Of a DNA stretch of 64,000 nucleotides, positions 22,326-56,768 are shown piece by piece. Positions within the stretch are counted from its first letter, which is position 1, and each line of letters starts with the position of its first letter. This DNA is from SAR116 cluster bacterium AG-325-I21 (GTDB lineage: Bacteria > Pseudomonadota > Alphaproteobacteria > Puniceispirillales > Puniceispirillaceae). The position numbers and the translations under genes were made by a program. The stretch is taken from assembly GCA_003282865.1 (NCBI GenBank), contig QBYK01000006.1:1-64000 (forward strand), written 5' to 3'. The notes beneath the pieces were generated by a model that ran no database searches, had not been told where the DNA came from, and saw only the letters and a program-made list of their open reading frames with translations.

Positions 22326-22468
22326 AATTTGAGGTAAGTATGTTTGCAAGAGGGTATGTTTTTTCATCTTGATTTCATCAAAATCGATGTTTTTTTGGTG
22401 TAAATGGACAGAACTTTGCAAACGAAGCGATCATTTGCGCCTTTTGCTATAAGTGGACCTAAACAAAT

Positions 22469-23362
22469 ATGACACAATTCCTCTTGCCTATTATTTTTGT
22501 TATTTTTTGGTCGTCAGGCTTTGTAGGAGGCAAGGCAGATGTGTAGCATGCAAACCATTCGCTTTTTTCGCGATCAAGTTTGCATTTGTTACCCTGATTT
22601 TCATCGCTGCCGAGATCGGTTTTTGGATATCGCGCAAAAAAGACAAAGCAAGAGCCCTTATCCCACGAGACCGCTTAAATGACCCAAGTTTGCAAACTTC
22701 TTTTATTTTTGTGCTGACCCACGGCATCTATGTTGGCAGTGCCTTTTTTGCGATGGCCAATGGTCTCGGCGCAGCACTATCAGCTTTCTTTGTATCAACC
22801 CAGCCATTTCTAACAAGAGCATTGGCAATTTTCATGTTTAATGAAAAACCCCAAACTATTAATGGGTCGGCATTTTTATTGGCTTTGCGGGCGTTGTTGT
22901 TGTGGTATCGCCATCAGCTGGAATAGATGCACTGGTTTTATCAATCATTTCCTGTTTTTTTGGGTTACTAGAAATTACGATTTGAGCTTTGCTTCAAAAA
23001 CGTGTTAGCAGCTCTGTTAGTTTAGTGATAAGCAACATCATCCAAGCCAGCGCCGCTTGCCTGTTTTTTATTAGTTTATTTTAAAAGTTGTAACACCATA
23101 TATGATATGGAATGAAACATTCTTAATAGCACTTGCATGGCAGGTTTTGGCTGTTTCAACCGGTGCTTATGTGGTTTTAATGATTTTGATTAAGCGTGAC
23201 AATATTGCTGCAACAACCTCACTTTTATTTCTAGGTCCATCTGTCACGGCAATTATCGCCTTTTTTGTTTTTAGTGAACCATTAACACCGATCACAATCA
23301 GTGGCTTTTTCATGGCGTCAAATAGGCTGTATCTTGTCACTCACAATAGCTCACAAAATTAA
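22469..23362 (+). pseudogene. EamA/DMT transporter broken by several frameshifts and stops
   Basis: MTQFLLPIIFVIFWSSGFVGGKADV* (frame 2), then CKPFAFFAIKFAFVTLIFIAAEIGFWISRKKDKARALIPRD...LTHGIYVGSAFFAMANGLGAALSAFFVSTQPFLTRALAIFMFNEK (frame 1), then WVGIFIGFAGVVVVVSPSAGIDALVLSIISCFFGLLEITI*, then WQVLAVSTGAYVVLMILIKRDNIAATTSLLFLGPSVTAIIAFFVFSEPLTPITISGFF. Confidence 0.85.
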
Positions 23363-23932
23363 ACGTTATGTCTCAAAAATCGTAGCTGAATATTGTTTTT
23401 AAGAGAGACTCCAGGGTCTAATTATCCAGAGTAAACATATGTTTACGCAACTCGAATGACGTAGGCCCATACGCAATTAATAGGTGCCACTATCCAGTAA
23501 TATTTTTAACCAAACAAATTTAATTGAGGTCCCCACCATACAAATCCAGATAAATTGCAACCTAGTTTTGTTAGTCCCAAGGCCCAATCATTCACTCTGA
23601 TGTGCCCAGCATTTAACCAATTCTTACAGAAGACGATATCACGAACTTATGTTGTCAGCTATCAATTACCCACAATGAGCAACAGTTCGGTTGTTAGCCT
23701 GAGTTTTCAGTTTTTCCAGTTTGGATTGCGAAAAACCATCAATAGGTTTTTAGTAACTGCAAATTGAAAAGGTGATCGGTACAGGTATTAATTGCCATAA
23801 ATTTTATGTTATTGATAAATCCCGCGTGCATATTTACTCTCAAAAGCATGGTGCCATGCTACAAGCTAACGCCCTCGAGAGCACAATGAATTATAAAAAT
23901 AATATGGAAAAACAATATGATAATTAAGTGTA

Positions 23933-30021: not shown

Positions 30022-31356
30022 TCAGTCAATTGTATTTACCTGAGTAAAACGGGATCTATGAACGTTTAAAGCCAATTCAGGCCAACGGGCGCAAAATCGA
30101 GCCTGATTAATTGAATTAATATTCACTATCATTAACTCATGCCCAAACTTATCATATTGTGAAGACTTAACCATCGCATTTTGATATAGCCAAGCCCGCG
30201 CGGCACCATCGGCTGGCGTTAAATTTATAAAAACCATTTTAGCGGATCTGCTAAGGCGTTGTTTAAGTTGCAGGAGTAAGTTTTCTATTCCACTTCCGGT
30301 TAGCGCTGAAACTACAACGCCCGAAAAGACACCGTGAGAGACATTTTTTTTATTGAAACAATTATTCACGAGGTCCGCCTTATTAAGCACATGAATTATC
30401 CGGGCTTTTTGCATCTCCTCATTAATTCCAAGATTGACCAACACCTGCTTCACGTCTTCTGCTTCTTCCTCCAACAAGGGTGAGGAAATGTCATGAACAT
30501 GCAATAAAACATCGGCCCTCACCACTTCTTCAAGAGTGCTGTGAAAAGCATCAATTAGTTCTGTTGGAAGCTGACTAATGAAGCCAACCGTGTCGGCCAG
30601 CACAACCTCTTGATCTAAATTGAGTTTCAACTCACGCATGGTTGGATCAAGTGTCGCAAAGAGCATATCTTTTGACAACACTTTAGCCCCCGTTAGCAAA
30701 TTAAATAACGTTGATTTCCCTGAGTTCGTGTAACCAACTAGTGCAACAGTTGGAGTTTCACCACGCAAACGATTACTACGCTGTATTGCTCGAGTTCTAG
30801 TCACCTCTCTCAACTCAGTCTTTACGCGCGTCACGCGCTCCAGAAGAATTCGACGGTCAAGCTCTATTTGTCTCTCACCTGGGCCTCCAAGAAACCCTCC
30901 ACCACCACGCTGCCGCTCAAGATGAGTCCAACTCCTTACTAATCGGCTGCGTTGAAAACTTAACGCCGCCAACTCAACCTGCAGTCGTCCAGCATGAGTT
31001 TTCGCCCGATTACCAAATATTTCTAGAATTAACTGAGTGCGATCAATTACCTTTGCACTAATTTGAGTTTCAAGATTACGTTGTTGAACTGGCGAAAGTT
31101 GTGTGTTCACAATAACTAACGACTCTCTATCACCTTTTGTAAAATCACTTACCAGGCTCGCTAAACTTTGAATAACACCTTTTCCAAAATATGACCCAGC
31201 ATGCAGTTTCTTTACTCTAATTACTTCAGCATGGATAACCTCAAGCCCAATAGCACCCGCGAGTGAACAGGCTTCTTGGAGCACACCGTCAGCTGGACGG
31301 ATAGACGGCAGAAATCTCAATTCAGGGCTAATTACGAATGCTAATGGATTATCCAA
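30022..31356 (-). CDS. hflX: GTPase HflX
   Basis: 'RSRLVRSWTHLERQRGGGGFLGGPGERQIELDRRILLERV', G1 'VALVGYTNSGKSTLFNLLTG', 'VLADTVGFISQLPTELIDAFHSTLEEV'. Confidence 0.96.
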   Translation of the reverse strand: MDNPLAFVISPELRFLPSIRPADGVLQEACSLAGAIGLEVIHAEVIRVKKLHAGSYFGKGVIQSLASLVSDFTKGDRESLVIVNTQLSPVQQRNLETQISAKVIDRTQLILEIFGNRAKTHAGRLQVELAALSFQRSRLVRSWTHLERQRGGGGFLGGPGERQIELDRRILLERVTRVKTELREVTRTRAIQRSNRLRGETPTVALVGYTNSGKSTLFNLLTGAKVLSKDMLFATLDPTMRELKLNLDQEVVLADTVGFISQLPTELIDAFHSTLEEVVRADVLLHVHDISSPLLEEEAEDVKQVLVNLGINEEMQKARIIHVLNKADLVNNCFNKKNVSHGVFSGVVVSALTGSGIENLLLQLKQRLSRSAKMVFINLTPADGAARAWLYQNAMVKSSQYDKFGHELMIVNINSINQARFCARWPELALNVHRSRFTQVNTID

Positions 31357-31555
31357 AAAAATCTCATTTCCATTGGATCATATTAATACTTCCATCAATA
31401 GCGTGTGCAAGCGCTACAACCTAGTTCAAATTTGATTTTCTTGTGATAGGAATATTTTAAAGAATAGAGTTATCAGAAGGTTTTTTTTTTATATATTAAA
31501 CCTCAACCATATTGACACTTTAGCACAACAACAAATTTTATGAGGATCAAAGATT

Positions 31556-32293
31556 ATGACCAAAACAATAGTGATTACAGGTGCGGGAAGCGGTATCGGC
31601 GCCGCAACAGCTAGAAAATTTTTAGAAAATCACTACAGTGTTGCGTTAATCGGTCGTCAAGTCAAAAAGCTTATGGAAACCGCAAATGGTCATAAAAATG
31701 CAATAATATTACCATGCGATGTCACTGACCCGGACTCAGTTGATACGGCGTTTGCTAATGCAATGACAGAATGGGGACACATCGATGTTTTGTTTAATAA
31801 TGCGGGAGTTGGAAGCTTTTCAACGACGATTGACAAAATTCCTGTAAAAACCTGGCTTGAAGTAGTCTCAATTAATTTGACTGGATCATTTTTGTGCGCA
31901 CGCGCTGCATTTAAGGTTATGCGTAAGCAATCACCGCAGGGCGGTAGAATCATCAATAATGGTTCAATTTCTGCTCACTCCCCTCGCCCTGGCTCGACGC
32001 CTTACACCTGTAGCAAACATGCAATAACGGGTTTGACTAAAAGTTTGTCCCTCGATGGTCGCCCTTTTGATATTTGTGCATGCCAAATTGATATCGGAAA
32101 TGCTTTGACTGATATGGCAATGAATATGACGACGGGCATGCCTCAACCGGATGGATCAACAAAAGTGGAGGATACTATGAACGTAGATCATGTTGCCGAG
32201 TCAGTTCTACATATGAGCCGATTACCCCTGGAAGCAAATGTCCAATTTATGACTATTATGGCAACGAAAATGCCCTTTATTGGAAGAGGTTAG
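31556..32293 (+). CDS. SDR family oxidoreductase
   Basis: 'IVITGAGSGIGAATARKFLE', 'VLFNNAGVG', 'YTCSKHAITGLTKSLSLDGR'. Confidence 0.9.
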   Translation: MTKTIVITGAGSGIGAATARKFLENHYSVALIGRQVKKLMETANGHKNAIILPCDVTDPDSVDTAFANAMTEWGHIDVLFNNAGVGSFSTTIDKIPVKTWLEVVSINLTGSFLCARAAFKVMRKQSPQGGRIINNGSISAHSPRPGSTPYTCSKHAITGLTKSLSLDGRPFDICACQIDIGNALTDMAMNMTTGMPQPDGSTKVEDTMNVDHVAESVLHMSRLPLEANVQFMTIMATKMPFIGRG

Positions 32294-32334
32294 TCGTGAT
32301 TCATATCTAATGCCCGGCTATTTTCTTCAAACAA

Positions 32335-33345
32335 TCATTTGTTTTGGTAGTATTCAATGTACCAAGTAGCAAAGGCCTTCACTCCGTCCTTTAGAGTAGT
32401 TTCAGGCACATAACCAATAAATTCTCTTAAACTGGTCGTGTCGGCGAAAGTTTCTTTAACATCGCCAGGTTGCATTGGAAATAGTTCCTTTATGGCTTTA
32501 AGACCAAAAGCCAGCTCCAGCTCTGAGATATATGACATCAAAGAAACTGGCGTCCCATTGCCAACATTAAAGATTTTGTATTTTCCCTTTTCTTTTCCAC
32601 CAATGTCCTTTTTTTGCAGTTGATGCTCTTTCATCTCTAGAGTTTTCTTGATTATTCTGCCTATACTCTCCACGACATCACCAATGAAAGTGAGATCACG
32701 CCTCATATCCCCGCCATTGAAAACCTTTATCGGCTTTTTGTTGGTGATTGCGTTAGCAAAAAGAAATGGGGACATGTCCGGTCTACCCCAAGGACCATAG
32801 ACAGTGAAAAATCTTAATCCAATAGTGGATAATCCATAAAGGTGAGAATAAACATGTGCCATAAGTTCATTGGATTTTTTAGTCGCAGCGTATAAGCTTA
32901 GAGGAGTGTCAGCATTATCCAACTCCTCAAATGGTTGTTTCAAGTTTCCGCCGTAAACAGATGAGGAGCTCGCATAAAACAAATGCAAACAATCATTTTG
33001 TTTGCAAGCCTCAAGAATATTAAAAAAACCAACAATATTAGTATCTATATATTTATCTGGGTTAGAAATTGAATATCTCACACCTGCTTGCGCAGCAAGA
33101 TGAAGGACGATGTCCGGTTTGAAATTCACAAACACAGCGTTCAACTGATGCGCCGACAAAATATCAATTTTATGGAACGAAAAATTTTCACGGTTAGCCA
33201 GAAGAGCAAGGCGATCCTTCTTTAATTTTTGATCATAGTAGTCATCAATATTATCGATCCCTAAAACACTATGGCCTTGATCTAACATTTTTGCAGCACA
33301 GTGCATTCCAATGAAACCAGCAACTCCAGTTAGAAGCACTCTCAT
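32335..33345 (-). CDS. NAD-dependent epimerase, UDP-glucuronate 4-epimerase-like
   Basis: 'MRVLLTGVAGFIGMHCAAKMLDQGHSVLGIDNIDDYYDQKLKKDRLALL', 'HLAAQAGVRYSISNPDKYIDTNIVGFFNILEACK', 'LRFFTVYGPWGRPDMSPFLFANAI'. Confidence 0.9.
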   Translation of the reverse strand: MRVLLTGVAGFIGMHCAAKMLDQGHSVLGIDNIDDYYDQKLKKDRLALLANRENFSFHKIDILSAHQLNAVFVNFKPDIVLHLAAQAGVRYSISNPDKYIDTNIVGFFNILEACKQNDCLHLFYASSSSVYGGNLKQPFEELDNADTPLSLYAATKKSNELMAHVYSHLYGLSTIGLRFFTVYGPWGRPDMSPFLFANAITNKKPIKVFNGGDMRRDLTFIGDVVESIGRIIKKTLEMKEHQLQKKDIGGKEKGKYKIFNVGNGTPVSLMSYISELELAFGLKAIKELFPMQPGDVKETFADTTSLREFIGYVPETTLKDGVKAFATWYIEYYQNK

Positions 33346-33619: not shown

Positions 33620-35138
33620 TTGAAAAACATTATAAAGTCATTGATTGGTAATATTATATTGAAAACATACCACCTTCATGTGAGCCGATTCCTTATGAAA
33701 ATTTCTCACTTTTCATTTTTTCTAGCACGTTGGGCTGAAACTTTTGGCGCTATAAGTCATGTAGAGCAAGGAGTGACTGACGAGGAGTTGAGATTACACC
33801 GAGATGAAGCTCTCAAAAAAACATATTTATGCAATTTGCCTCGTTTCAAAAAAAAATTTTCTTGGTTTCTTCACCTATCATTTATGGAATTGTCGCTGAA
33901 AAAGCAACTCAAACAACAAGGGCGTCTTAGCCAGCTTTCCATTTTCCTAAACTGTTTTTTAAAAAGCTTGAAAAGGCTATATCTATTCATCGTAGTTTTA
34001 TGGAAATTTTTCAGTTTTAAAAAAGATTATTTTGCGTTTTCTTACACTGGAACAACAAGCACTCAACCTGATTTTTTTGATATACCATCCAGACCATTGT
34101 AAATTTCAGGTTACTCAACTGAGTCATCTTAATGGTGTGAGAATTCACACCTCAGTAAAAAATCACAACGCCAGTCATCAAATGAATATAAAAGAGCTCT
34201 CAATGAATTTGGGTGAATTTGTCAAATTGATAGCCGTTTGTCTCCAAAATTCATACATTCCCCCAGACCAAGCACGCAAAGTTTTACTGCTGGATCGGTT
34301 TTTAACCACATTATTAACGCCGGGTGATATTTTTTTTGGTGATATAAAATATTTATTTGTTTACGAGGGTAGCACGCCAGAAACCTGCGTCTTGCAGGAT
34401 GTTGCCAAAGACCTCGGAATTCTAACTTTTCAATACACCTACTGGCCGGTACTGCCATATGAGATTCTTTACAACATAAAATCTGATTTTTTATTACGGC
34501 CAAATTTTTCTCATCCCAAAACGGAGGTATTTAATGTCGTGAAAGACCTCTCAAAAAGCTTGGCATATATTAAGCTTAAAGATCCTGGAATTAACAGGAA
34601 CAACTTCAACGCTAACAATTGTGGAATCGTCTTGGATATGTTTGATTTTAATGATGTTGAAAAGAAAAAGGAAATTTCTTCAGTTATTCAACATTGCGAA
34701 ACAGATCAAAAGTTAAAAGTCACATTAAAATTTCATCCGCAAATTTTAAAAAGGCCACGCTACGTAATCGAACACCACATGAAAAATCTTGGAATAAACC
34801 ATAACAAAAGCGTTTATTGCGAAAAAGAAAAAGATTTTCTTTCTACTGTGAGTTTTATTATCACAAATTCGGAGTCGATGATAATTCAAGATGCGATTAT
34901 GATGGGCACACCCGTTATCTTCTTCAGTAAGTCGAAATCCATTTATGTAAATGAAATAATCGATTTGTGTCCCCAATTGATTTGCCATTGTGGAGATTTT
35001 TTGAAGCTAGATAATGCAATCAGAATTTACACAAAAATGACTATTAAAAACCGCCGCAAAGCACAAAAAGCGTTCCTGTATCACAGAAAATACTCTGATG
35101 TAAGATACCCGCAATTGACTGAAATTTTATCTGATTAA
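33620..35138 (+). pseudogene. Frameshifted (or slippage-controlled) paralogue of the 35982..37523 protein; GT-B/CDP-glycerol-transferase-like C-terminal region
   Basis: ORF 33620..34102 (frame 2) and ORF 34032..35138 (frame 0) together align along the 513-aa downstream ORF: 'FFLARWAETFGAISHVEQGVTDEELRLHRDEALKK' vs 'FGLARWAETFGAFTHAKHGPSDLELRTHRDKALKK'; 'LIYHPDHCKF' vs 'MIYHPNYCQF'; 'LKFHPQILKRP' in both. The frame change maps to the T7 run at 34072-34078. Confidence 0.82.
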
Positions 35139-35141
35139 AAA

Positions 35142-35802
35142 TTAAGCGAGCTCATGCTCCAGTGTTCCAAAAATAACGTCAGGCAGGCCGCGAATGCGAC
35201 GCAAGGCAGAAGCTCTGCACTGTTTATGCTCCTCATTTAAAGAAGCACTTAACGTGGAACCTCCGTTGAAAAGGACTGTCGTTTCCCCTTCAACATCAAA
35301 AAAACATTTCGCTTAGTTGGAGACCAGAATTGATCTAGATTTGATGTGTCCACCCTCTTGGCAACTCTTCGGTCCAAACATTGACCAGGTCAAAGCAGTG
35401 ATCCATAGTCAACGCAAAAACAACTACGGGGGATTAAATAGCTAGATGTAAGGAATTGCCAATTGATATCCGACTCTTAATTTCTCGCTGCCACGTTATC
35501 TTACGCCGTCCAAGATTGACCCAAACGCTGTGGCCATTCGACGTCTCGACGATTCTATCTAGAGCAATATTTGATTGTGATCACGGTTTTTCCAAGAGCC
35601 AGCACTTTGCTTCAATTGATTGCAACAGTCTTAATGACAGCTCATATCCTTTTTCTTGGGGTGTTGATACTATAACTTGGTCGGCAGTTGACTCATTGCC
35701 AACCATAAAATTGAGGTCGGCCCATAAGTTCATTTCAAGTTTGCCCTTTAAATGACTTACTGGATCTGCAATCCATCTCAATGCATTACTAACCCTCTGC
35801 AA
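35142..35802 (-). pseudogene. Possible degenerate reverse-strand CDS of unknown family
   Basis: Protein-like reverse-strand segments with intervening stops and frame changes: 'MQRVSNALRWIADPVSHLKGKLEMNLWADLNFMVGNESTADQVIVSTPQEKGYELSLRLLQSIEAKCWLLEKP*' (35581-35802) and a C-terminal-like '...MFFDVEGETTVLFNGGSTLSASLNEEHKQCRASALRRIRGLPDVIFGTLEHELA*'. Confidence 0.35.
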
Positions 35803-35981
35803 AAAGTCTCAATTCAGCTGACTAAAAAAAAATTTAATTACATTTCGTATTTTTCAACCTGAATACTTTTAATCAACCGAAGGATTTTTTATCTCTTAAA
35901 GGATTTCAAAGCATTAAGTTTAACTACCGCAGATATATCAATTGCAGCGTGATTGTTTTTTTATTAAACAAAAAATGAGAT

Positions 35982-37523
35982 TTGGAGACATGCAATTTCC
36001 TTTTTAAAACCAGAATTCTACTTCAGAGGATCTTAGTTATTTTTTATAGGCTTCTTCCCCATTGCAAACTAACGTTTAAAAAAATTAGCTACTTTATTTT
36101 TGGTTTGGCCCGATGGGCGGAAACTTTTGGGGCTTTTACACACGCAAAACATGGGCCAAGTGATCTCGAATTAAGAACTCATAGAGATAAAGCATTAAAA
36201 AAGGTCTGCCTTCAACAAAATTCTTCCATTGAAAATCATTTTTCATGGTATATCCATCTAGCAATATTTGAACGGTCTCTAAGCCAGGCACTACGCGGCC
36301 AGCATAGATTGAGCCCTGCACCTATTGTTTTCAATTTATCAATACGAGCGTGCAAGGGAACTTTCATTTTCCTTGCTGTAATAGCAGATTTCATCATGCG
36401 TAAAGAAGATAGTTTTGCAATTGCGCGGACGCCAAATTCCAATAGAAGCGCCAGTTATATGATTTATCATCCAAATTATTGTCAATTTGATAAAGAGCAC
36501 CTTGGCCATTTAAGTGGATTTCGGATATTTGCAAACAACGACCCCTCAAGTTTAGAGGGTGTTATTTGCCACACAAAAATTTCAATGTCTTTACAAGACC
36601 TTTTTCAGCTGTTCAGTCTATTTTTTAAGAATCCTATCATTCCCCCCAGTCAAATCCGGAAAGTATTGCTTTTACAAAGGTTTTTAAAGGAACATCTTTT
36701 GTTTCGCGAAGACATTTTAGACAAAATAAAACACATGTTTGTCTATGAAGGCTCTAACCCAACACATAGTACACTCATTGCTTTCGCAAAAGCACGGGGA
36801 ATATCTACGTTCCAATATTATGCCCAACCAGTCATACCTTATGAAATTCTATATCACATCAAAGCTGACTATCTACTAATGACTAAGTTTCCAGACAAAG
36901 AGTCTGAACCTTTCCAAGTAATCGAGGGCCTACCAAATAAACTAGCTTACATCAAACTGAAAAATCCGGGAATAGAACCTACAAAAAACAAAACAATTTC
37001 ATGCGGCATTGTGTTGGATATGTTTGATTTCAATGGAACCAATAAAAGAGAAGAGATCAGAAACGCAATTGAATGCTGCCAAGCAAAAAAAGATCTTCAG
37101 GTTGCCTTAAAATTTCATCCACAAATTTTGAAGAGACCAAGCCATGTTTTGGGGTATCACCTTAAAAAAATTGGATTAACGTCAACAAAAATGGTTTATC
37201 GCGGTAATAAAGATGAGTTTCTTAAAAGTGTCACTGTCATGATTACTAACTCTGAGTCATCGATTATTCAGGATGCACTCTTCCAGGGAATTCCTGTAAT
37301 TTTTTTTAGCGCTTCACCATCAATTTACATAGCGGGGATCTATGAAATATCTCCACGATTACTCCGCATCTGTAAAGATCTGAGCTCATTAAATAAGGCG
37401 ATCCTAGAATTTAGTGACATGAGTTTTAAAAAGAGAATCCAAGGACAAAAGGAATTCTTCGACCACAATGAAAAACAAGACAATGGCTATCCACAACTCG
37501 TTGATATATTATCTGATCTATAG
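35982..37523 (+). CDS. Putative surface-carbohydrate biosynthesis protein with GT-B/CDP-glycerol-transferase-like C-terminal part
   Basis: 513-aa intact ORF; C-terminal 'LKFHPQILKRPSHV...VMITNSESSIIQDALFQGIPVIFFSASPSIY' resembles the nucleotide-sugar-binding half of GT-B enzymes. Intact paralogue of 33620..35138. Confidence 0.6.
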   Translation: METCNFLFKTRILLQRILVIFYRLLPHCKLTFKKISYFIFGLARWAETFGAFTHAKHGPSDLELRTHRDKALKKVCLQQNSSIENHFSWYIHLAIFERSLSQALRGQHRLSPAPIVFNLSIRACKGTFIFLAVIADFIMRKEDSFAIARTPNSNRSASYMIYHPNYCQFDKEHLGHLSGFRIFANNDPSSLEGVICHTKISMSLQDLFQLFSLFFKNPIIPPSQIRKVLLLQRFLKEHLLFREDILDKIKHMFVYEGSNPTHSTLIAFAKARGISTFQYYAQPVIPYEILYHIKADYLLMTKFPDKESEPFQVIEGLPNKLAYIKLKNPGIEPTKNKTISCGIVLDMFDFNGTNKREEIRNAIECCQAKKDLQVALKFHPQILKRPSHVLGYHLKKIGLTSTKMVYRGNKDEFLKSVTVMITNSESSIIQDALFQGIPVIFFSASPSIYIAGIYEISPRLLRICKDLSSLNKAILEFSDMSFKKRIQGQKEFFDHNEKQDNGYPQLVDILSDL

Positions 37524-37671
37524 CTGGGCGACCATTTGTTGGTTAGTATATAAGTCTTTAACAAAACCAAAGAACCGAATAATGGCATTACCACGTATTT
37601 TATCACGACATTGCTATTATAAAATTCTTTCAAATGTTAGCGAGTAATTGAAGAGAATTGGAGAAATTCAC

Positions 37672-38538
37672 ATGCAAAATGAATTACGACACTTAGATCA
37701 TGATGAAATATTACAATCAACTCGTGAGATAGAGGTTCTAGGATATACTAAAGTCGAAAATGTATTATCAGAACAGTTGCTGGAAAACCTGCTGTCGATA
37801 ATTGAAAAGAATAAAACGCTTGGAGCTGGTGCAAAACCGGAATCAGCAGGGGTATCAAAAAATCAAGCGAACGATATGTATGTTTACCATTTGCAATACG
37901 TTGATAAAATATTTTTGGATGTATTGACAGAGTGGAAAGGTGGGCTTGACATACTCCAACATTTCCTGAACGACCCTTACTATAGACAAATTCCAGAGAA
38001 TGAGCCAAACTTTTTGCTCGGCTTTTATAATGCCCGATCCAGCGTTGACTTTTTACCGCTACACATTGACAATTATGTGCCGTCGCTGGGTAATCACCCT
38101 AATGCCATGCAAATTATTTTTTCTTTAAATGGTCAAACAGAGGCTAAAGGTGGAACCTTTGTCGTTCCTGGGTCTCACAGAAGTGGATTACTTCCGGACC
38201 GATCTCTCAATAATATAACAACACCTATAAATTGCAATCCTGGTGACGCTTTAATTTGGGATAGCAGGCTCTGGCATGGCGCCGGTGAAAACAAGACCAA
38301 TGAGGACAGGTGGTCTCTAGTTGCAACGTTTCGTCCATGGTATCTGAAACAAAATTTTGATCCCGTGCGTGGAATGACGAGTCATATGTTTAATAAATTA
38401 TCCGATAGTCAGAAAGCCCTGTTGGGGTTTTTATCAATTCCGCCGCGTGACGAGTACGAGAAAATAGTGTTAAAAGAAGGTTACGACTCCTTATTACCAT
38501 CAATTCAAGAATACAGAGATAAGCCCGCAAATGACTAA
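37672..38538 (+). CDS. Phytanoyl-CoA dioxygenase (PhyH)-family Fe(II)/2OG oxygenase
   Basis: ORF 37648..38538 (ATG at 37672); 'LPLHIDNYVPSLGNHPNAMQIIFSLNGQTEAKGGTFVVPGSHRSGLLP', 'CNPGDALIWDSRLWHGAGENKTNEDRWSLVATFRPWYLKQ': H-x-D and distal H motifs. Confidence 0.85.
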   Translation: MQNELRHLDHDEILQSTREIEVLGYTKVENVLSEQLLENLLSIIEKNKTLGAGAKPESAGVSKNQANDMYVYHLQYVDKIFLDVLTEWKGGLDILQHFLNDPYYRQIPENEPNFLLGFYNARSSVDFLPLHIDNYVPSLGNHPNAMQIIFSLNGQTEAKGGTFVVPGSHRSGLLPDRSLNNITTPINCNPGDALIWDSRLWHGAGENKTNEDRWSLVATFRPWYLKQNFDPVRGMTSHMFNKLSDSQKALLGFLSIPPRDEYEKIVLKEGYDSLLPSIQEYRDKPAND

Positions 38539-39433
38539 TAAATATGAGAAAAAAATTGGTAAATTTGGGGAAGTTTACTCAGTACCGCGTCCCACTGAAG
38601 TGGAACTAGATGCTTTCTATAAAGAAGAATATTATTCGGAAGGTGTTAACTCTACCTATCAGTTGAAGTATACCGATGACGAGTTGGCGCAAAAAAAAAT
38701 AAGAGCCAATATCACAATAAGAAGCATCATGGAAAAACTGGGAGACTTATGTACAAATCCAAAAATGCTAGAGATAGGATGTGGAGAGGGTTTTGTTATT
38801 TCAGCTGGCAGGAAAATGGGGCTTTCCATCAAAGGAGTTGATTTTCAATCAGAGCCAGTAGAAAAATTTAATCCGCATATTGTGGACCATTTCATTCAAT
38901 TTGATCCAAAAGAATTCTTGCGTAACGAAATAAAAGACGGGTGCAAATATGATGCACTGATTTTGCAGAATGTGTTAGAACATGTGATCGACCCGGGGGC
39001 TCTGTTATTACAACTCAAGCAGATGTTAAGTAGTAATGGCGTCTTATTAGTCCAGGTTCCTAATGATTATAGCAAGTTCCAAGAATATGCGAAAAGCAGA
39101 GGCAAATTAAAACATGAAACGTGGTTTCGGCCGCCAGAACACTTGAACTACTGGAATTCGGAGAACATCCGACCATATGTCGAGTCCCTTGGCTACAAAA
39201 TAATTGATCAGTTCTCAGACTTTCCGATTGAGATGTACTACTGGGGGAATGAAACAAATTACAATCTTGATCCAACAAGATTAGGCCCCCATGCACACAT
39301 CGGTCGAGTAGAACTCGATCTTTACTTCGCTCAAGCTGGTGAAGAAGCATATTTGGGTCTGTACAGAGCATTTTCTCGCGTAAGTATGGGAAGGAACTTA
39401 ATTTTGCTCTTGCAAGATCAAAACAGTCGTTGA
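38531..39433 (+). CDS. Class I SAM-dependent methyltransferase
   Basis: 'KMLEIGCGEGFVISAGRKMGLSIKGVDFQ', 'YDALILQNVLEHVIDPGALLLQLKQMLSSNGVLLVQVPND'. Overlaps the PhyH gene end by 8 nt. Confidence 0.88.
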   Translation: MTNKYEKKIGKFGEVYSVPRPTEVELDAFYKEEYYSEGVNSTYQLKYTDDELAQKKIRANITIRSIMEKLGDLCTNPKMLEIGCGEGFVISAGRKMGLSIKGVDFQSEPVEKFNPHIVDHFIQFDPKEFLRNEIKDGCKYDALILQNVLEHVIDPGALLLQLKQMLSSNGVLLVQVPNDYSKFQEYAKSRGKLKHETWFRPPEHLNYWNSENIRPYVESLGYKIIDQFSDFPIEMYYWGNETNYNLDPTRLGPHAHIGRVELDLYFAQAGEEAYLGLYRAFSRVSMGRNLILLLQDQNSR

Positions 39434-45139: not shown

Positions 45140-46455
45140 GTCATCCTCCCAAACGCATCTGAACGCGTATTTTTACCTTTTTCTAAGGAAATATTTTTGT
45201 CCTGAAGGGCGTGGCTAATAATCCCAAAGACTTCTTCAATAGCCTCGGCATAAACGTCAATTACTCCTTGGTCGTGAGCCCAGCATACGTAAACACTATT
45301 AGACGCCAAATACCCCCTAGCAAGCATCTCTTCACAAAAGATGGTCATTAGGTGGTCATTCAATTCCTCATACTGAAATTTGAAGGTCGCTAACGGATAA
45401 AATTCACCAGTATAAATTGACAAATTATTTTTTTTTGCTGCTTTCTTCCAAACTTTTATAATATTTTGGCCCATTATCTGTAGGTGCTTGTATACATTTT
45501 CGCGGTTCAGTATTTCGATGGTTTTGCGTGCCGCTACGAATCCAACTCGCTCTGTCCACATTGTTGAACTCATAAATGATGCACTGGCTTTTTCCATAGT
45601 CTCCTTGTGGCCAACAATGGCGGATATTGCAAAACCGCCCCCCAATGCTTTCCCAAAAACTTCGATATTCGGCTGGCAACCCAGAGTTTTCAAAACGCCT
45701 CCGGGGCTGACTCGCCAACCAGAAGTTATTTCATCGCTTATTAATATAGCTCCAGTAGCAACTTGTAGCTGCTTTACAGCCTCCACAAATTCTAAAGATG
45801 GATATTCATATCTCGCGCCCTCCACACAAATAACCCCGATGTCATCTTGTTCCTTTTGAATCCTAAGCACATCTTCTGGATCATTGTATCTGAAAGGAAC
45901 GGCTGTTCCCTCAAGTTCCTTTGGGATACCATAAGGTATTAATCCTGGTATCAGATGATCAGACAATTTATCGCCTTTAAGATTCGCTGAAATATACCAA
46001 TCATGCCACCCATGATACCCAGAAAATACAACCTTGCTTCGGCCCGATGCTGCTCTTCCAACTCTTATCGCTTGGGACATAGCCTCTCCCCCTGTACGCG
46101 CAAACTTAACGCGACTTTGTCCATCGGTAAATTTCAGCATTTCCTCGGCAAGCAGAACTTCGTCGGGTGAATTGAGGGTACAATTTACACCACCATTAAT
46201 TGCCTCCACGACAGCTTCGTTAAGCTCGTCATTTGCATAACCAAGCACAGAAGATCCAATTGCCATTTGTGCCATGTCTACGTATCGATTTCCATCTAGA
46301 TCCCAAACCTCGACACCCTTACATTTGGAAAAATAGGTCGGCCACTGCAAGGGAGAATATCGGGAAGGACTTTTTGAAAGCAGTCCGTTTCCACCAAGAA
46401 TGACGCTCTCTGCTTTTGACCACAACCTTAAACCGGTATTAATTGGCATTGACAT
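45136..46455 (-). CDS. Class III aminotransferase, glutamate-1-semialdehyde-aminomutase-like
   Basis: ORF 45136..46515; 'MSMPINTGLRLWSKAESVILGGNGLLSKSPSRY', 'KVVFSGYHGWHDWYIS', 'ILISDEITSGWRVSPGGVLKTLGCQPNIEVFGKALGGGFAISAIVG'. Confidence 0.88.
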   Translation of the reverse strand: MSMPINTGLRLWSKAESVILGGNGLLSKSPSRYSPLQWPTYFSKCKGVEVWDLDGNRYVDMAQMAIGSSVLGYANDELNEAVVEAINGGVNCTLNSPDEVLLAEEMLKFTDGQSRVKFARTGGEAMSQAIRVGRAASGRSKVVFSGYHGWHDWYISANLKGDKLSDHLIPGLIPYGIPKELEGTAVPFRYNDPEDVLRIQKEQDDIGVICVEGARYEYPSLEFVEAVKQLQVATGAILISDEITSGWRVSPGGVLKTLGCQPNIEVFGKALGGGFAISAIVGHKETMEKASASFMSSTMWTERVGFVAARKTIEILNRENVYKHLQIMGQNIIKVWKKAAKKNNLSIYTGEFYPLATFKFQYEELNDHLMTIFCEEMLARGYLASNSVYVCWAHDQGVIDVYAEAIEEVFGIISHALQDKNISLEKGKNTRSDAFGRMT

Positions 46456-47242
46456 TTCTCCTAAAGGCTCGAGTGCCCTTTTCAGCTTCCACGCCCTTAA
46501 TTGTTTTATCACCAATCATATCAACAACTGCCTCAGCTTCTTTTACCATCATTTTGAAAGCTTTTTCGTCTATTGATACAGGAGCATCAATGCAATCTTT
46601 ATCACCGGAGAGCATAAAATGCTTTTCGATTATCTCTGCACCAACAGCAACTGCATACAACGGAACCTCAATACCTTTTGTGTGATCGGAATATCCAATC
46701 TTTATGCCCTTTAACAATTCTTTTAAAGCCATTATTTGGCCAAGGCTTGCGTCCGACTTTTTCAACGGATAAGAAGACACACAATGAAAAACAGAAACTC
46801 TTGCATCACGTTTGACAAATATCTCAATTGCTCTTGAGACTTCCTCATTGTCAGCCATCCCTGTTGACATAAATGTTGTGGCACCTGAGGCCGCAGCGGC
46901 GTCAATCAAAGGCATGTTCACGATATCAAACGATGCGATCTTGTGATAGTTCACATTTATTTCATTTAAAAAATTGATACTTTCGATGTCAAAAGCAGTC
47001 GAAAAAAACTCAACGCCCTGAGCATCAGAGTGGTTTTTTAATTTTTCAAATTCACCAAATGTTAGCTCACAAGATTTCAAAATTTCATAAAGAGGTGAGC
47101 TCTTCCCCACCCTATCTTCAGCGTTATAGGTTTGGAATTTTATAGCATTACACCCAGTCTTAACAGCGCTATCAATAAGCCGGAAAGCCTTATCAAGACT
47201 ACCACCATGGTTTATTCCAATTTCTGCAATAAAAAATGTCAT
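46439..47242 (-). CDS. NeuB/SpsE-like nonulosonate synthase, catalytic domain only (SAF domain apparently absent)
   Basis: 'FFIAEIGINHGGSLDKAFRLIDSAVKTGCNAIKFQTY', 'KIASFDIVNMPLIDAAAASGATTFMSTGMA', 'HCVSSYPL', 'IGYSDHTKGIEVPLYAVAVGAEIIEKHFML'. Ends at '...KGTRAFRRNVNAN*', where a SAF domain would normally begin. Confidence 0.85.
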   Translation of the reverse strand: MTFFIAEIGINHGGSLDKAFRLIDSAVKTGCNAIKFQTYNAEDRVGKSSPLYEILKSCELTFGEFEKLKNHSDAQGVEFFSTAFDIESINFLNEINVNYHKIASFDIVNMPLIDAAAASGATTFMSTGMADNEEVSRAIEIFVKRDARVSVFHCVSSYPLKKSDASLGQIMALKELLKGIKIGYSDHTKGIEVPLYAVAVGAEIIEKHFMLSGDKDCIDAPVSIDEKAFKMMVKEAEAVVDMIGDKTIKGVEAEKGTRAFRRNVNAN

Positions 47243-55733: not shown

Positions 55734-56768
55734 TTGATTATGAAAAACTCAGTTATGCACATTGGCTTTAACGACAAAGACACCAATGTGGCGTTCAATG
55801 AATTCTACATAGAGTCAAAACGAGCCGGTCGAAATGCAAAATTTATGTCCATCGATTCAACTCCGAATTTTACGTCCTCAGATAACAGCATACTGAAATT
55901 CATTAGCGCTGCGATAAAGGTGAGAGATCAAGCTCAAATCTTCCATTTTCACCTTATCCAAGTTTCATGGCTTTTCGTATTAGTTCATCGGCTAATAGGT
56001 GTGAAGAAAGCTGTAATCGTTACAATTCACACTTCTTACGATAACCTAAATTCTTTTTTAAAACAGTGTTTTCTTTTTTTAAACTTGGTTTTAGGTGTTG
56101 AAATTGTATTTTGCAGCAAAGCAAGCAAATTGTCGTTTAAGCGATCATTACTGTGGATATATCTAAAACGGCGTGAAGTTGTTTTGAATGGTTTTAATAT
56201 AAAGATAAGCGAAACTCGCGACAAGCGAGCAAAGTCAATATTAATAGTTAGCCGATTTATTGATCTCAAAAGGCCAATTTTTGCAGCAACAGCATTCAAT
56301 AAGATCAGTAACGACGAAGCAACTCTCTCTTGGGTTGGAGCGGGCAAACTTGAGGCCGGCTTAAAAAAAAACTTTTCCCATGACGAACGAATTAGTTTCA
56401 TGGGCACACTATCCCGTGAAGACACTCAAAGGGTTATGGCAGAATCTTCAATCTTGATGTCGACGTCATTGATTGAAGGGATGCCAATTTCAGTTTTAGA
56501 GGCAGCAGGTCATGGATGTTTACTTATACTTTCGGATATCCCCCCCCATAGAGAGATAGCTAAGGATATCCCAAACACATTTTTGTTCAATGACGAAGAA
56601 GATTTGTTACGCCAAATAAATCTTGTATTTTCTTTTAGTCAGAGAATCTTAAATGAAAAATATCTTGAAAACAAAATTGCAGGCATAAAAAAATTTAACA
56701 TGAAGAATGTGTTTGAACAGTATGATAGAATATATCGAAATAAAATACGTGCTATCGGTCAGGATTAG
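55734..56768 (+). CDS. Glycosyltransferase family 4
   Basis: 'SILIVSRFIDLKRPIFAATAFNKI', 'ISFMGTLSREDTQRVMAESSILMSTSLIEGMPISVLEAAGHGCLLILSDIPPHREI'. Confidence 0.88.
   Translation: MIMKNSVMHIGFNDKDTNVAFNEFYIESKRAGRNAKFMSIDSTPNFTSSDNSILKFISAAIKVRDQAQIFHFHLIQVSWLFVLVHRLIGVKKAVIVTIHTSYDNLNSFLKQCFLFLNLVLGVEIVFCSKASKLSFKRSLLWIYLKRREVVLNGFNIKISETRDKRAKSILIVSRFIDLKRPIFAATAFNKISNDEATLSWVGAGKLEAGLKKNFSHDERISFMGTLSREDTQRVMAESSILMSTSLIEGMPISVLEAAGHGCLLILSDIPPHREIAKDIPNTFLFNDEEDLLRQINLVFSFSQRILNEKYLENKIAGIKKFNMKNVFEQYDRIYRNKIRAIGQD

Follow-up and report, generated by a model that had tools for sequence, protein, structure and literature searches.

Among the surface-polysaccharide genes of SAR116 cluster bacterium AG-325-I21 two related genes stand in tandem, and the upstream one, here called copy B, is divided between two reading frames. 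Has this gene been lost, is it switched or recoded, or is it simply misrepresented in a draft assembly? We addressed this question in a 64,000-nucleotide stretch of DNA (positions 1 to 64,000 of contig QBYK01000006.1), hereafter the window. The preliminary description of the locus had considered a pseudogene, a phase-variable contingency gene and a product of transcriptional slippage; of these three the first is best supported, as a pseudogene or null allele. In our assessment, copy B, an orphan GT-B glycosyltransferase-like gene, is probably either a recently inactivated copy or a null allele at strain level. The features needed for the argument are as follows.

33620..34102, plus strand: 5' part of copy B, a 160-residue ORF starting from TTG
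34032..35138, plus strand: 3' part of copy B in another frame, with homology to copy A starting at about 34077
34072..34078, plus strand: T7 tract with the best junction score, where the one-base frame change of copy B most probably lies
34614..35135, plus strand: region of copy B for the C-terminal GT-B domain, which would be lost through the frame change
35139..35981, no strand: 843-nt spacer, in which no recognisable gene, gene remnant or third copy was found
35982..37523, plus strand: copy A, an open 513-codon paralogue with an uncertain start codon (TTG)
36996..37520, plus strand: predicted C-terminal GT-B domain of copy A (structural model and Foldseek), with invariant KFHP and TNSES motifs
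37648-38538, plus strand: PhyH-type dioxygenase, a same-strand neighbour
38531-39433, plus strand: methyltransferase, a same-strand neighbour

When copy B is read from frame 2 into frame 0 with one nucleotide skipped, a 505-residue product results. It aligns with the product of copy A over 500 residues at 44% identity and 61% positives, with one 2-residue gap (E=1e-144), so that the earlier claim that the two frames join into a full-length homologue of the 35982..37523 protein holds; the coordinates then given for both ORFs, the T7 tract and an A9 tract (33848-33856) likewise agree with the sequence. A single frame change, one nucleotide forward, is all that copy B needs, and comparison with copy A revealed no further lesions in it. 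The first frame ends at a stop codon at 34100-34102. On the 3' side of the break, 353 codons pass without a stop, and none of 2000 shuffles of this part remained open, which excludes a chance open frame. The 5' part probably begins not at the TTG but at ATG 33695 (MKISHFSFFLARW), from which point its DNA resembles that of copy A; upstream of it no alignable DNA was found between the copies.

Moving the junction codon by codon gave a score peak at 34072-34075 within a near-flat plateau of approximately 34048-34078, and the stop codons would permit a junction anywhere within 33996-34099. The T7 tract is the sole homopolymer of at least five nucleotides within the plateau, and the event was probably an indel in this T run. 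Nonetheless, since the stretch between the flanking conserved residues is poorly conserved and the score is nearly flat, the exact site can only be inferred. In other words, the proposed one-nucleotide advance at T7 is right in its direction and coincides with the score peak, but other positions of the plateau fit nearly equally well.

The two genes are indeed paralogues, as had been suggested, but their tandem arrangement does not reflect a recent duplication. They lie 843 nt apart, and synonymous sites between them are saturated (pS 0.80) while pN is 0.38, which indicates old paralogues, both of them constrained by purifying selection through most of their past. Copy A had been called intact. 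Its 513 codons are open, but its start is uncertain: the earliest possible start is TTG 35982 and the first 138 codons contain no ATG, so that translation must begin at this TTG or at another non-ATG codon. Because non-ATG starts also occur elsewhere among the window's intact genes, hflX (30022-31356) for example, copy A may nevertheless be functional. The ATGs next to its start, at 35975 and 35990, are out of frame and open a short ORF (35975-36007, plus strand; TAA at 36005-36007) that overlaps the presumed TTG. Promoter-like matches near copies A and B did not exceed the shuffle level.

What the two genes encode is less evident from sequence. No Pfam, NCBIfam, PHROGs or PADLOC model matched either product above threshold, and no PDB chain matched by sequence. 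TIGR04326, a surface carbohydrate biosynthesis protein model (O_ant_LIC13510), matched residues 343-448 weakly (E=0.0026), but the match scores 16.2 bits against a curated cut-off of 250. We rejected membership in this family, as profile comparison against three proteins retrieved with the model, two of them above the cut-off, gave no convincing alignment. The isolated C-terminal domain was modelled with a mean pLDDT of 77.2 and a pTM of 0.77, and among the Foldseek matches listed for it nearly all were GT-B glycosyltransferases or UDP-GlcNAc 2-epimerases. Representative structures of GT-B glycosyltransferases and non-hydrolysing UDP-GlcNAc 2-epimerases (PDB 3ot5, 3qhp and WaaG 8b5q) were matched with E-values of about 1e-5 to 3e-4 and query TM-scores of about 0.5-0.63, but at 9-17% identity. 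The full-length model reached a pLDDT of only 44, and the N-domain, where we sought the paired N-terminal Rossmann domain, was not reliably modelled. The fold matches of the modelled C-domain, taken together with two motifs that A and B share unchanged, KFHP and TNSES, suggest that the product is most likely a GT-B-fold glycosyltransferase.

Bacterial sialyltransferases of families GT38, GT52 and GT80 carry D/E-D/E-G and HP motifs (PMC7439481). Copies A and B share the HP motif, present in both as KFHP, and their island also holds genes for a NeuB-like synthase and a cytidylyltransferase. However, both have YEG in place of D/E-D/E-G and match no family model. The protein family had been described as poorly characterised, which is right but understated: it has a predicted GT-B fold in the C-domain, no family model and no relative that we could find. 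No A/B relatives beyond those of the window itself were detected in overlapping samples of 61, 385, 136, 399 and 48 genomes; in particular, none of the 136 genomes of the order contained an orthologue of copy B, and neither did the class and phylum samples. These profile searches of whole genomes, which recovered both A and B in the window's own genome whenever it was included, are stronger evidence than the scans of genome and viral contigs, which were seeded by short exact peptides and whose failure to find a relative is weak evidence. Searches of plasmids and phages with tblastn also found none, and Capsule_synth-type and other HP-motif proteins encoded in the island of a relative showed no homology. 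We therefore regard A and B as a sequence-orphan GT-B glycosyltransferase-like family, which is the mildly novel part of the finding.

The genomic surroundings are those of a surface-polysaccharide island. The hflX and SDR genes upstream of copy B are adjacent in several relatives, and the content beyond them differs; this pair, present at 30022-33345 of the window and in loci L035-L040, is conserved across the family and borders a polysaccharide island of variable content. In G004, a complete genome of the same genus, O-antigen ligase and epimerase genes adjoin at the corresponding place, whereas in the window a block consisting of B, A, the PhyH-type dioxygenase and the methyltransferase stands between them. 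Further along, dTDP-sugar genes, the NeuB-like synthase, the cytidylyltransferase and aminotransferases suggest that the surface polysaccharide contains an unusual sugar, and copy A probably transfers a sugar in polysaccharide synthesis. The NeuB-like synthase (46439-47242, minus strand) is 267 residues long and ends after the NeuB domain; its match to full-length NeuB/PseI models stops at about position 277 of 329, and the SAF part normally present at the C-terminus seems to be missing. Gene loss does occur in this lineage, as seen from a decayed EamA-type transporter gene in the same window (approximately 22467-23366, plus strand), which has at least three frame changes, an internal stop and pieces lying in successive different frames.

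Recent inactivation would account for copy B as follows. A and B would be anciently diverged paralogues encoding a sequence-orphan GT-B-fold glycosyltransferase-like enzyme of the island, and copy B would recently have been hit by a one-base indel, most likely within T7. Ribosomes translating it would halt at the stop of the first frame after at most 160 residues, and the putative nucleotide-sugar-binding domain at the C-terminus would not be made. Copy B would then be null in the sequenced lineage, while copy A is still open. Under random substitutions the probability that 353 codons stay free of stops is about 0.05 at 5.7% divergence, so that copy B was either broken recently or is not really broken at all. 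Relative to copy A, copy B shows the disablement expected of a pseudogene, one frame change, but not the further decay, and for a pseudogene this fits recent inactivation only. It resembles the frameshifted bacterial pseudogenes of the GeneTack survey (PMC3711429) in having one frame change flanked by homology and no recoding motif, but differs from them in having no orthologues with which to form a cluster.

A consensus error or a reversible tract would likewise leave copy B with one lesion. Copy B may be intact in the organism if sequencing, consensus building or the mixing of strains introduced the extra base. In agreement with this, no second lesion is seen; homopolymers are typical error sites, and the draft assembly is fragmented, with 122 contigs and 79.7% completeness. 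Nonetheless, 18 other A/T runs of at least seven nucleotides inside Pfam-matched coding stretches keep their frame, and the ABC_tran matches in the assembly (53/53) are free of internal stops or frame breaks. The error rate at such runs is thus low, and we consider an artefact unlikely.

If, on the other hand, the length of T7 changes reversibly, copy B would be a contingency gene whose switching on and off alters the surface polysaccharide. Surface-polysaccharide genes are classic contingency genes, and it has been argued that phage pressure makes SAR116 surface polysaccharides vary (PMC8547437). However, the tract itself does not stand out. TTTTTTT occurs 110 times in the window against 98 expected, a count reached by 24 of 100 shuffles, and A/T runs of 7-9 are present in many intact genes. 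The A9 and a T8 tract of copy B, both longer than T7, remain in frame, and there is no T-run at the aligned site of copy A. Together with the lack of strong RNA structure downstream of T7 (z=-1.27), these observations speak against both recoding and a switch that is maintained, and phase variation of copy B, one of the readings initially offered, seems quite improbable. The more ambitious proposal combines a new GT-B glycosyltransferase family, possibly transferring a nonulosonate-type sugar (suggested by the NeuB-like and cytidylyltransferase genes in the island), with toggling of expression by T7 in natural populations, and we regard it as more doubtful still. Elsewhere in the window, a C8 tract (56540-56547, plus strand) lies inside an intact GT4-type glycosyltransferase gene (55734-56768) and is a better contingency-tract candidate than T7; chance yields such a tract in 37 of 100 shuffles.

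Transcriptional slippage at T7, or else programmed +1 frameshifting, could also yield full-length copy B. The direction and position would fit, and the 3' frame is intact. Yet many genomes show selection against slippage-prone runs from nine nucleotides up (PMC1088944), and seven Ts fall short of the nine usually implicated. Directly after the tract there is neither a stop codon nor another obvious +1 stimulator, and the downstream folding is unremarkable. A conserved slippery run, which it had been proposed to look for in orthologues, is absent from copy A, the sole homologue available. Lone frameshifted genes, moreover, are likely to be indels or errors (PMC3711429). Recoding in either form is thus very hard to credit. 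Split glycosyltransferases exist and both frames of copy B are open and overlapping, but assembly of one enzyme from two separate polypeptides is just as implausible, since the split falls inside the N-domain, between its first two predicted strands (low-confidence model) rather than at a domain boundary, and the first 50 codons of the 3' ORF lack an ATG.

The finding is real but ordinary, and recent inactivation of copy B is the reading we prefer. Switching at T7 in populations would, if true, provide a cheap switch for escaping phages, but it is not what the evidence favours. As sequence models miss the A/B family, annotation pipelines would call its members hypothetical proteins. The broken copy B would be one more case of turnover in a marine alphaproteobacterial surface-polysaccharide island, whose gene content varies between relatives.
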